Of a stretch of 64,000 nt of DNA, positions 42,206 through 45,523 are shown one piece after another. Each line of letters starts with the position of its first letter. Within the stretch, counting starts at the first letter, position 1. Under the pieces are notes generated by a model. That model was not told the origin of the DNA and did not search any database. It saw only the letters and a program-made list of their open reading frames with translations. Source of the stretch: Sporichthya polymorpha DSM 43042 (lineage in GTDB: Bacteria; Actinomycetota; Actinomycetes; Sporichthyales; Sporichthyaceae); NCBI RefSeq assembly GCF_000384115.1, contig NZ_KB913029.1:2951057-3015056 (forward strand), read 5' to 3'. A program made the translations under genes and the position numbers.

Positions 42206-42211
42206 AAGATA
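42206..42211 (-). promoter_or_regulatory. -10 element of a probable leaderless arsR transcript
   Basis: On the minus strand TATCTT ends 6 bases before the arsR ATG. It lies directly beside the inverted repeat at 42213-42228, a layout expected for autorepression. Confidence 0.45.
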
Positions 42212-42212
42212 G

Positions 42213-42228
42213 GTAACCAAAAGGTCAC
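42213..42228. promoter_or_regulatory. Candidate ArsR operator
   Basis: GTAACC (42213-42218), AAAA and GGTCAC (42223-42228) form an inverted repeat with one mismatch, in an AT-richer patch of an otherwise GC-rich region. It is upstream of the arsR -10 element and faces the encapsulin operon about 125 bases away. Confidence 0.5.
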
Positions 42229-42282
42229 ATGTCAACGGGATCGCGGCGGCGGAGTTCACGCAGTCGTTTCCGTGCGGCTCTT

Positions 42283-42352: not shown

Positions 42353-43291
42353 ATGACCGCGGTGTCCGAACCCCGCGCCCTTTCCGACTCCGCCGCTCGG
42401 CAGCTCGCGAATGCGACCAAGACGCCGGCGCAGATGGACCTCATCACGCCGCGGTGGCTCGTCCACCTGCTGCAGTGGGTCCCGGTCGAGGCGGGCATCT
42501 ACCGACTCAACCGCGTCCGGAACACCGACGAGACCGTCAACGTCGCCTGCCCCGGACGTGACGAGTCGGAGCTTCCGCAGTCGTTCGTCGACTACGACGA
42601 GAACGCGCGGGAGTACTTCCTCAACTCGGTCGCGACCGTGCTGGACGTCCACACGCGCGTCTCCGACCTGTACTCGAGCCCGTACGACCAGATCGCCGAG
42701 CAGCTCCGCCTCACCATCGAGGCCATCAAGGAGCGCCAGGAGGGCGAGCTGATCAACAACCCGGACTACGGGTTGCTCACCAACTGTGCGCCGCACCAGC
42801 GGATCACCTCGCGGAACGGGACGCCGACCCCCGACGACCTCGACGAGCTGCTCGTCAAGGTCTGGAAGGAGCCGTCGTTCTTCCTCGCGCATCCGCGGAC
42901 GATCGCGGCCTTCGGGCGTGAGTGCACCCGGCGCGGGACGAACTCGCCGACGATCTCGATGTTCGGCTCGCAGTTCCTGACGTGGCGCGGCCTGCCGCTC
43001 GTGCCGTCGGACAAGGTGCCGATCGCGGCCGACGGCACGAGCTCGATCCTGCTGCTCCGAGTGGGTGAGCGGCGCCAGGGCGTCGTCGGGCTGTATCAGC
43101 CAGGCCTCACCGGCGAACAGAGCCCGGGCCTGTCGGTGCGATTCATGGGCATCACCCGTGACGCGATCGCCTCGTACCTGATCTCGCTGTACTGCTCGCT
43201 CGCGGTTCTGACCGAGAGCGCGCTCGGCGTGCTCGACGGCGTCGCGGTCGACAAGTACCACGCGTACGACGACAAGTACGCCAAGAAGTGA
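42353..43291 (+). CDS. Family 2A encapsulin nanocompartment shell protein
   Basis: The protein (312 residues) matches the shell proteins of family 2 encapsulins, HK97-fold proteins that self-assemble into hollow shells; older names are SrpI and major membrane protein I. Recognisable segments are DSAARQLANATKTPAQMDLI, TPRWLVHLLQWVPVEAGIYR, HTRVSDLYSSPYDQIAEQL, LTIEAIKERQEGELINNPDY, GSQFLTWRGLPLVPSDKVPI and GLSVRFMGITRDAIASYL. There is no inserted cyclic-nucleotide-binding domain, which places it in type 2A and not 2B. The ATG at 42353 has AGGAG 7 bases upstream. Its stop overlaps the cysteine desulfurase start (GTGA), the typical cargo gene. Confidence 0.95.
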   Translation: MTAVSEPRALSDSAARQLANATKTPAQMDLITPRWLVHLLQWVPVEAGIYRLNRVRNTDETVNVACPGRDESELPQSFVDYDENAREYFLNSVATVLDVHTRVSDLYSSPYDQIAEQLRLTIEAIKERQEGELINNPDYGLLTNCAPHQRITSRNGTPTPDDLDELLVKVWKEPSFFLAHPRTIAAFGRECTRRGTNSPTISMFGSQFLTWRGLPLVPSDKVPIAADGTSSILLLRVGERRQGVVGLYQPGLTGEQSPGLSVRFMGITRDAIASYLISLYCSLAVLTESALGVLDGVAVDKYHAYDDKYAKK

Positions 43292-45456
43292 CCGCCGGTC
43301 TGGGGGATCTCCCCGGTCCCGTGCCGGCCGGCCTGCCCGACGAGGCGACGCTGACCCGGATGGCCGCCGAGTTCTTTGGTGCACTCGGCGGCACCGCCGG
43401 AGCGCCCGGTGCGCCGGACGGCCTCCTGGCTGAGGCTCCGTCAGAAGTCAACGCCCTCGGGCCGACCCCGGCCGCGTTGGACACCCCGAGCGCGGCCGGG
43501 CTGCCCAGCCCGCCGCGCCTGGACCCGCCGGGTGCGGGTGGTGCCTCGACGACCGGCGCCGCGCAGTACGCGTCGGTCCCGCTCGCGCACGGGGAGTACA
43601 CCCCGCCGTGGCTGTCGCCGGTCCCGCCGCCCGTCGAGGCGGTCCCCGTCGGTGGTCCGGCGTTACCGGGCAGTGCGATGGCGTCCGTCCCGCCGGCGGC
43701 GACGAAGCCCGGCACCACGGGCGGTTCGACGACCGGTGGGACGCAGTACGCCGACTCCGCGGTGCACCGCCAGGGCAACCCGTTCGGGGACACCGACGTG
43801 GAGGTCCCAGGCCTGCCGGACGTCCCGAGCCTCGCGGCCCTCGCCGCTCGGGCGCTCGGGCAGCCGGCCCCGGCCCCGGCGTCGGAAGCCCAGCCGCAGA
43901 CCCCGGCCGCGCCGGGCTCGGCGGACTTCCCGGCCCCCGAGCTCTCCGACGGGCGCGCCCCGAACTCGCGCGCCGGGGACGGGCGTCCGCACGCCCTCGA
44001 GCCGGCTCCCGAGTTCGCCTCGCCGTTCGGCGCGACGAACGTCGTCGTGCCTTCCTTGCCGGAGATTCCCGCGCCGTCGACGCCGTACTCGTTCCTGGGC
44101 GAGGCCTCGGGTTATCCGTCGGCAGCCGGTGCGCCGCTCGCGTACACCGCGCCCCGGGCCGAGGGTGGTCGGCCGGTCCCGCACCCCGGCCACGGCGAGT
44201 TCGACGTCGAGGCGGTCCGGCGGGACTTCCCGATCCTGTCCGAGACCGTGAACGGCCGGCCGTTGGTCTGGTTCGACAACGCGGCGACGACGCAGAAGCC
44301 GCAGGCGGTCATCGACCGGCTCGCGTACTTCTACGCGCACGAGAACTCGAACATCCACCGGGCGGCGCACGAGCTCGCGGCGCGGTCGACCGATGCGTAC
44401 GAGGGCGCGCGCGACAAGGTGGCCCGGTTCCTCGGGGCCTCCTCGAGCGACGAGATCGTGTTCGTCCGCGGGGCGACCGAGGCCATCAACCTGGTCGCGG
44501 CGGCCTGGGGCCGCAGGCACGTCGGCGCCGGGGACGAGATCGTGATCTCCCACCTGGAGCACCACGCGAACATCGTCCCGTGGCAGGAGCTGGTCAAGCA
44601 GACCGGCGCCGTGCTGAAGGTGATCCCGGTCGACTCCGCCGGCCAGATTCTGATGGACCGTTACACCGATCTGCTCTCGGACCGGACCAAGCTCGTCGCG
44701 ATCACGCAGGTCTCGAACGCGCTGGGCACCGTGGTCCCCGTCAAGGAGGTCGCGGAACTCGCCCACCGCGCGGGAGCCAAGGTGCTCGTCGACGGTGCGC
44801 AGTCGGTGCCGCATCTGCGGGTGAACGTTCAGGACCTCGGCGCGGACTTCTTCGCGTTCTCGGGCCACAAGATCTTCGCCCCGACCGGCGTCGGCGCGCT
44901 CTACGTCCGTGACGACGTCGCGGAGGAGATGGGTGCGTACCAGACCGGCGGCAACATGATCCGCGACGTCACGCTCGAGCGGTCGCTGTTCCACCACGCC
45001 CCGATGAAGTTCGAGGCCGGCACCGGCACGATCGCCGACGCGGTCGGGCTCGGTGCGGCGCTGGACTACCTGGAGCGCATCGGGTTCGAGAACGCCGCGT
45101 CCTACGAGCACTCGCTGCTCGAGTACGGCCTGCGGCTGCTCAAGGACGTCCCCGGGCTGACTCTGATCGGGACGGCGCCGCACAAGGCGAGCGTGATGTC
45201 GTTCGTACTCGACGGTTACACCCCGGAGCAGGTCGGTTCCGCCCTGAACGCCGAGGGCATCGCGGTGCGGTCGGGCCACCACTGCGCGCAGCCGATCCTG
45301 CGTCGGTACGGCCTGGAGGCGACGGTCCGGCCGTCGCTCGCGTTCTACAACACGTGCGCCGAGATCGATCACCTGGTGACGGTCCTGCACCGGCTCGCCG
45401 CCGACGGCGGCGGCGCGTCCCGCCGCGGTCAGGCGACGACCGACCCGGCGCCCTGA
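43288..45456 (+). CDS. SufS-type cysteine desulfurase with disordered encapsulin-targeting N-terminus
   Basis: The enzyme takes sulfur from cysteine as a persulfide and releases alanine. The catalytic domain starts at about residue 304 (FDVEAVRRDFPILSETVNGR) and is complete: PLP lysine K528 in FSGHKIFAPTG, active cysteine C666 in RSGHHCAQPILRRYG. Residues 1-300 are rich in Pro, Gly and Ala. They include a short helix (LPDEATLTRMAAEFFGAL, 16-33), the repeats STTGAAQYA (87-95) / STTGGTQYA (147-155), and PFGDTDVEVPGLPDVP (165-180) / PFGATNVVVPSLPEIP (246-261). In known family 2A systems this extension directs the enzyme into the shell. Start GTG overlaps the shell gene stop. Confidence 0.95.
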   Translation: MTAGLGDLPGPVPAGLPDEATLTRMAAEFFGALGGTAGAPGAPDGLLAEAPSEVNALGPTPAALDTPSAAGLPSPPRLDPPGAGGASTTGAAQYASVPLAHGEYTPPWLSPVPPPVEAVPVGGPALPGSAMASVPPAATKPGTTGGSTTGGTQYADSAVHRQGNPFGDTDVEVPGLPDVPSLAALAARALGQPAPAPASEAQPQTPAAPGSADFPAPELSDGRAPNSRAGDGRPHALEPAPEFASPFGATNVVVPSLPEIPAPSTPYSFLGEASGYPSAAGAPLAYTAPRAEGGRPVPHPGHGEFDVEAVRRDFPILSETVNGRPLVWFDNAATTQKPQAVIDRLAYFYAHENSNIHRAAHELAARSTDAYEGARDKVARFLGASSSDEIVFVRGATEAINLVAAAWGRRHVGAGDEIVISHLEHHANIVPWQELVKQTGAVLKVIPVDSAGQILMDRYTDLLSDRTKLVAITQVSNALGTVVPVKEVAELAHRAGAKVLVDGAQSVPHLRVNVQDLGADFFAFSGHKIFAPTGVGALYVRDDVAEEMGAYQTGGNMIRDVTLERSLFHHAPMKFEAGTGTIADAVGLGAALDYLERIGFENAASYEHSLLEYGLRLLKDVPGLTLIGTAPHKASVMSFVLDGYTPEQVGSALNAEGIAVRSGHHCAQPILRRYGLEATVRPSLAFYNTCAEIDHLVTVLHRLAADGGGASRRGQATTDPAP

Positions 45457-45484: not shown

Positions 45485-45523
45485 GAGGTGCCCGCCCCCG
45501 GTTTGGACGGGGTCGGGCACCTC
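45485..45523 (+). terminator. Terminator of the encapsulin operon
   Basis: GAGGTGCCCG (45485-45494) pairs exactly with CGGGCACCTC (45514-45523), and CCCC/GGGG extends the stem inward. It begins 28 bases after the desulfurase stop. The following 220 bases up to the lipoprotein gene are GC-rich with several short stems. A TAGGCT hexamer at 45714-45719 may be the -10 box of the next operon. Confidence 0.75.

Follow-up and report, generated by a model that had tools for sequence, protein, structure and literature searches.

A predicted family 2A encapsulin operon with a cysteine desulfurase cargo in a non-mycobacterial actinomycete

The family 2A encapsulin system of A. baumannii reportedly stores elemental sulfur. 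In the S. elongatus counterpart, the N-terminal region of the cargo is both necessary and sufficient for loading, and the loading motifs published for 2A cargos are LARLANEFFS and AASPYYFLDG (PMC8049743). A total of 1,281 family 2A desulfurase operons have been counted, 193 of them in Actinobacteria, and among their accessory genes the strongest enrichment is that of rhodaneses and serine acetyltransferases (PMC8346489); such accessory cysteine and sulfur genes are common with 2A systems rather than defining for them. The operon described here, which lies in a window of 64,000 nucleotides (the whole stretch of DNA that was analyzed), is an additional example of this family of virus-derived protein shells, members of which have previously been investigated in cyanobacteria, Acinetobacter and mycobacteria.

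The shell and cargo genes

The shell gene (Table 1) is preceded by AGGAG, and its stop codon overlaps the GTG start of the cargo gene by 4 nt (GTGA). A comparable overlap between shell and cargo genes is found in 79 of 90 2A loci, as judged with a longest-start heuristic. The two genes very probably constitute a single translationally coupled operon for a family 2A encapsulin nanocompartment, a degree of confidence that applies jointly to this identity and to the explanation as a whole that is developed below.

Table 1. Positions of the genes, predicted domains and motifs in the window
Feature	Position	Strand	Details
Shell gene	42353..43291	+	312 codons; ATG at 42353, stop TGA 43289-43291; SrpI / MMP-I type
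Cargo desulfurase gene	43288..45456	+	722 codons; GTG 43288, stop 45454-45456
Predicted disordered N-terminal cargo-loading region	43288..44187	+	residues 1-300; pLDDT, dN/dS
Putative cargo-loading motif 1, predicted helix (residues 19-34)	43342..43389	+	core LTRMAAEFF, residues 22-30
Putative cargo-loading motif 2, PSTPYSFLGE	44074..44103	+	about residues 263-272
SufS-type catalytic domain of cargo	about residues 301-705	+	NF041166; K528, C666
Hairpin after cargo gene	45485..45523	+	16-bp arms; likely transcript end

The shell protein scores 517.6 bits (E 7.5e-156) against the NCBIfam model of family 2A shells (NF041162; cut-off 380 bits). In a Pfam search, the SrpI-like family, covering residues 56-300, is the sole match of the 312-residue protein, and no cyclic-nucleotide (cNMP-binding) domain was detected. 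The family 2B model is also passed, with 423.6 bits against a cut-off of 400, the best stretch on the 2B profile being confined to positions 208-449, which is to say its shell part. When the sequence is searched against the PDB, five distinct solved 2A shell sequences come out best, followed by family 2B shells, and the relatives include 8t6r, 6x8m, 9ksl and 8wol. An AlphaFold2 model built from 46 relatives has a mean pLDDT of 68.6, corresponding to moderate confidence, and its fold comparison places 8t6r, 8wol and 6x8m at the top with a TM of about 0.77. Behind the 2A shells of A. baumannii, M. smegmatis and S. elongatus, this ranking continues with 2B shells and then with T5 and HK97-type capsids. 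By homology, HK97-fold subunits of this kind would assemble into a closed icosahedral shell.

The cargo scores 833 bits against the NCBIfam model of 2A cargo cysteine desulfurases (NF041166; cut-off 800 bits), and its best PDB match is 8kg1. The catalytic residues, K528 (within SGHK) and C666 (within GHHC), stand exactly at the positions given in the first-pass annotation and are invariant in 26 aligned cargo enzymes. Since the curated models for both proteins, the five solved 2A shell sequences and the fold comparison agree, the identification of the locus as a family 2A encapsulin with a cysteine desulfurase cargo is supported by sequence and predicted structure alike, and a chance match is dismissed as the source of either assignment. 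The first-pass annotation had already read the locus as a family 2 encapsulin without a cyclic-nucleotide insert, coupled through GTGA to a complete SufS-type desulfurase, and the results above bear out each of these points. It had also named the HK97 fold beforehand as the check that might refute this reading; that check was run, and the reading withstood it, as the shell model most resembles 2A shells, then 2B shells and then HK97-type capsids.

The cargo N-terminus and the proposed mechanism

Preceding the enzyme domain is a segment that had been described as a disordered N-terminus of 300 residues, and structure prediction concurs: residues 35-301 are predicted to be disordered, with a pLDDT of about 30, and a helix at residues 19-34 is the sole confident N-terminal element of the cargo (mean pLDDT 81 for residues 21-30). 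The core of this helix, LTRMAAEFF, is the counterpart of the published LARLANEFFS, and PSTPYSFLGE is the counterpart of AASPYYFLDG. By analogy with S. elongatus, the cargo may be loaded by the same N-terminal mechanism, in which desulfurase dimers would be drawn into the shell by the disordered region, mainly through the LTRMAAEFF helix and the PYSFL motif. L-cysteine would enter through the shell pores, whereupon the pyridoxal phosphate (PLP) enzyme (K528) would remove its sulfur and generate a persulfide on C666, an activity that the conserved catalytic residues suggest. The sulfur would then either stay in the lumen or go on to an acceptor, so that surplus cysteine is buffered. For shell assembly, cargo loading, desulfurase activity and sulfur storage alike, this proposal draws on what is described for relatives, as does the first-pass view that the organism may store or traffic sulfur in a shell.

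Two short motifs, GGSTTGxxQYA and PFGxTxVxVPxLP, each occur twice in the cargo tail, which has a self-similarity of 93, against at most 91 in 200 shuffles. As stronger tail repeats are present in many relatives, with several mycobacteria-type tails and others being far more repetitive, those seen here are regarded as nothing special. It could be, speculatively, that tail repetition aids multivalent binding to the shell. The cargo N-termini at three other loci (L158, L159 and L163) contain very strong internal repeats (e.g. PPQTVPVAPRGSVPDATAATSAGQ), with z values of 19 to 26 over shuffles.

Outside the window, the genome encodes a canonical SufS (G000:C1 4635797-4636924) within a sufB-sufC-sufS-sufU operon. 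This enzyme, like the encapsulin cargo, is a SufS-family desulfurase, but it has no N-terminal extension and falls short of the cargo model NF041166 (522.7 bits versus the cut-off of 800). Given this separate SUF operon, which has a SufS and a SufU of its own, the cargo desulfurase is not considered to be the housekeeping Fe-S enzyme.

Comparison of this genome with one congener (G002) gives a dN/dS of 0.11 for the shell and, within the cargo, of 0.065 in the enzyme domain and 0.33 in the N-terminal region. The shell and enzyme domain are thus under purifying selection between the two genomes, and the low values argue that function has been maintained in both genes. A third congener (G001; L164 9845-11270) has broken copies of both shell and cargo within intact flanking synteny. 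The region has two large internal deletions: the shell gene is reduced to its ends, with a changed start codon, and the cargo is missing about residues 179-565, the catalytic lysine included, and contains frame shifts. This assembly is a 380-contig draft in which assembly error is possible, and the presence of several lesions within a syntenic block suggests that the decay is real. Since both genes are broken, the 2A system seems to be dispensable in that congener, which agrees with the finding that S. elongatus knockouts have no growth defect (PMC8049743).

It is scarcely credible that the enzyme is a second SufS for Fe-S assembly and the shell a decaying, functionless capsid remnant. The SufS-type catalytic domain and the breakage of both genes in one congener would fit such a scheme, but the SUF operon elsewhere in the genome, the strong purifying selection on the shell between two congeners and the retention of the loading motifs all speak against it.

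Flanking genes and sulfur metabolism

The first-pass annotation had further supposed that the neighborhood might hold clues to function, an expectation that comparison with other genomes does not sustain. In the window and in two congeners, the gene order is guaB, a guaB-like gene, glpD, SRPBCC and ArsR genes on the opposite strand, shell, cargo, TlpA, CcdA and guaA. In these flanks the gene caller is crude, with some starts and genes mis-set, and the assignments therefore rest on tblastn or curated models. In both sister-genus genomes, glpD adjoins guaA at a distance of a few hundred bases, and the block genes are all absent. This empty site indicates that the glpD-guaA block is genus-specific, and the 2A system of the sister genus (G004) resides at another site with other neighbors. 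Among about 90 2A loci outside the genus, neither TlpA, CcdA nor SRPBCC was found near the shell, and ArsR gave one weak match. A functional link to TlpA/CcdA, SRPBCC/ArsR, glpD or guaA is therefore rejected on two grounds, the gene order at about 95 loci and the site that is empty in the sister genus.

Following the cargo gene is a stable hairpin that is conserved in two congeners; the 71-nt stretch containing it has a predicted folding energy of -45.2 kcal/mol (z -3.5). A standard terminator scan does not call this hairpin, because it lacks a T-run. It likely terminates the two-gene transcript, and its conserved position after the cargo gene makes it probable that TlpA and CcdA are transcribed apart from the operon. 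This bears on the idea that the operon belongs to an envelope redox system along with two proteins encoded downstream, the lipoprotein TlpA and the membrane protein CcdA. The TlpA/CcdA pair does follow the operon after 288 bp in the same orientation, a position kept in the congeners, yet it is set apart by the hairpin, is missing near the other 2A loci outside the genus and occurs in other actinomycetes as TlpA/CcdA pairs with no adjacent 2A shell. Furthermore, the lipobox of TlpA (LLAAC) would place this protein outside the membrane, whereas the shell is inside. Such an envelope role is accordingly very improbable.

Two further features of the flanks may be recorded. A palindrome, GGTAACCAAAAGGTCAC, at 42206-42235 lies just upstream of the ArsR start, where it overlaps a minus-strand promoter-like site, and both congeners retain it as GGTGACCAAAAGGTCAC. 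It is a possible candidate for an ArsR operator, with 0.49 chance occurrences of the pattern, at one mismatch, expected in the window. In G001 (L164 11992-13400), two tandem TlpA copies, with 59% and 47% identity to the TlpA of the window, are situated upstream of CcdA.

The partners typical of 2A operons are likewise missing: no CysK, serine acetyltransferase, rhodanese or sulfur carrier is present among the identified neighbors of the operon. No serine acetyltransferase exceeds the cut-off anywhere in the genome, where the nearest hit, itself weak, is a maltose-type acetyltransferase. The same absence applies to 15 of the 21 genomes searched, and being common among relatives, it is no peculiarity of this system. 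The genome does encode a cystathionine beta-synthase, a CysM-like enzyme and the SUF operon (SufB, SufC, SufS, SufU), as well as twelve rhodanese matches at scattered loci. Elsewhere, the shell gene is flanked by CysK and serine acetyltransferase genes, as seen in mycobacteria-type loci and also in a further genome (G189), and in another (G010) a serine acetyltransferase lies about 1.1 kb from the shell on the same contig. At all seven mycobacteria-type loci inspected (L154, L155 and L157-L161), relatives of a TQXA-domain protein identified in L154 are encoded next to the shell and divergently from it, mostly preceding CysK and serine acetyltransferase.

Rather than storing sulfur, the shell could enclose the desulfurase in order to regulate or speed sulfur transfer to a specific acceptor, such as a rhodanese or a sulfur carrier. 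The enrichment of rhodaneses and serine acetyltransferases in 2A operons (PMC8346489), the increased activity of the S. elongatus desulfurase upon encapsulation (PMC8049743), the rhodanese that ends the S. elongatus operon and the dispersed rhodanese matches of the present genome all favor such a role. Against this stands the lack of a rhodanese or sulfur carrier in or beside the operon, with none of the twelve rhodanese matches falling in the window, and dedicated transfer to an acceptor is here considered a real, if somewhat doubtful, possibility.

A scenario particular to this lineage can also be drawn. The compartment would be uncoupled from serine-acetyltransferase-dependent cysteine synthesis, would draw its cysteine from the cystathionine beta-synthase/CysM-like route or from outside, and would act as a dispensable buffer for cysteine or sulfur, encoded on a block restricted to the genus; the doubled GGSTTGxxQYA and PFGxTxVxVPxLP motifs would give the cargo a multivalent loading tail peculiar to the lineage. 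This scenario is improbable.

Kinship, distribution and comparison with known systems

In a tree that includes reference shells, the shell falls in a clade with support of 100/99, together with those of A. baumannii, Burkholderia, S. elongatus (SrpI), Streptosporangiaceae MAGs and the mycobacterial MMP-I type. A clade restricted to actinomycetes, which had appeared in a first tree, was refuted once A. baumannii, Burkholderia, SrpI and Azospirillum were added; as the first three of these fell inside it, that clade was a sampling effect. Shells above the 2A cut-off occur in 15 of 395 sampled genomes of the class, about half of these 15 belonging to one genus (f4/g5), probably mycobacterial since its shells match MMP-I. 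A search for shell relatives on viral contigs found none. In a Lentisphaerae MAG (L054 8001-11631), two tandem family 2A shell genes reside ahead of the desulfurase, possibly representing a two-component 2A shell.

The discovery repeats known biology. It adds a clean non-mycobacterial actinomycete example of 2A, in a complete genome and without the usual partner genes. Because the genus includes both intact and broken copies, it also offers a natural comparison, in that sulfur and cysteine physiology can be set side by side for congeners that have a working compartment and those that lack one, which makes 2A function testable.

Three described systems provide the closest points of reference. 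In A. baumannii (PDB 8t6r), the shell is about 75% identical and the cargo desulfurase domain 69% identical to those described here, and the cargo N-terminus displays LARLANEFF and PYYFL motifs that correspond to the ones in this cargo, although host and setting differ. The S. elongatus SrpI shell (PDB 6x8m) is 69% identical, and shell and cargo are adjacent in both cases. Its cargo, CyD, is loaded by a disordered N-terminal region, as is predicted for the present cargo; the S. elongatus locus is arranged as cysK-epsC-srpI-cyd-rhodanese on a plasmid, in contrast to the chromosomal, overlapping pair of shell and cargo genes seen here. Mycobacterial MMP-I / Mmp1 (PDB 9ksl, 8wol, 8won) shares the actinomycete host setting, a 2A shell of about 64% identity and a coupled desulfurase. 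Unlike the present operon, which has neither partner, mycobacteria-type loci carry divergent CysK and serine acetyltransferase genes upstream, and several of their cargo N-termini are strongly repetitive where the repeats found here are weaker.
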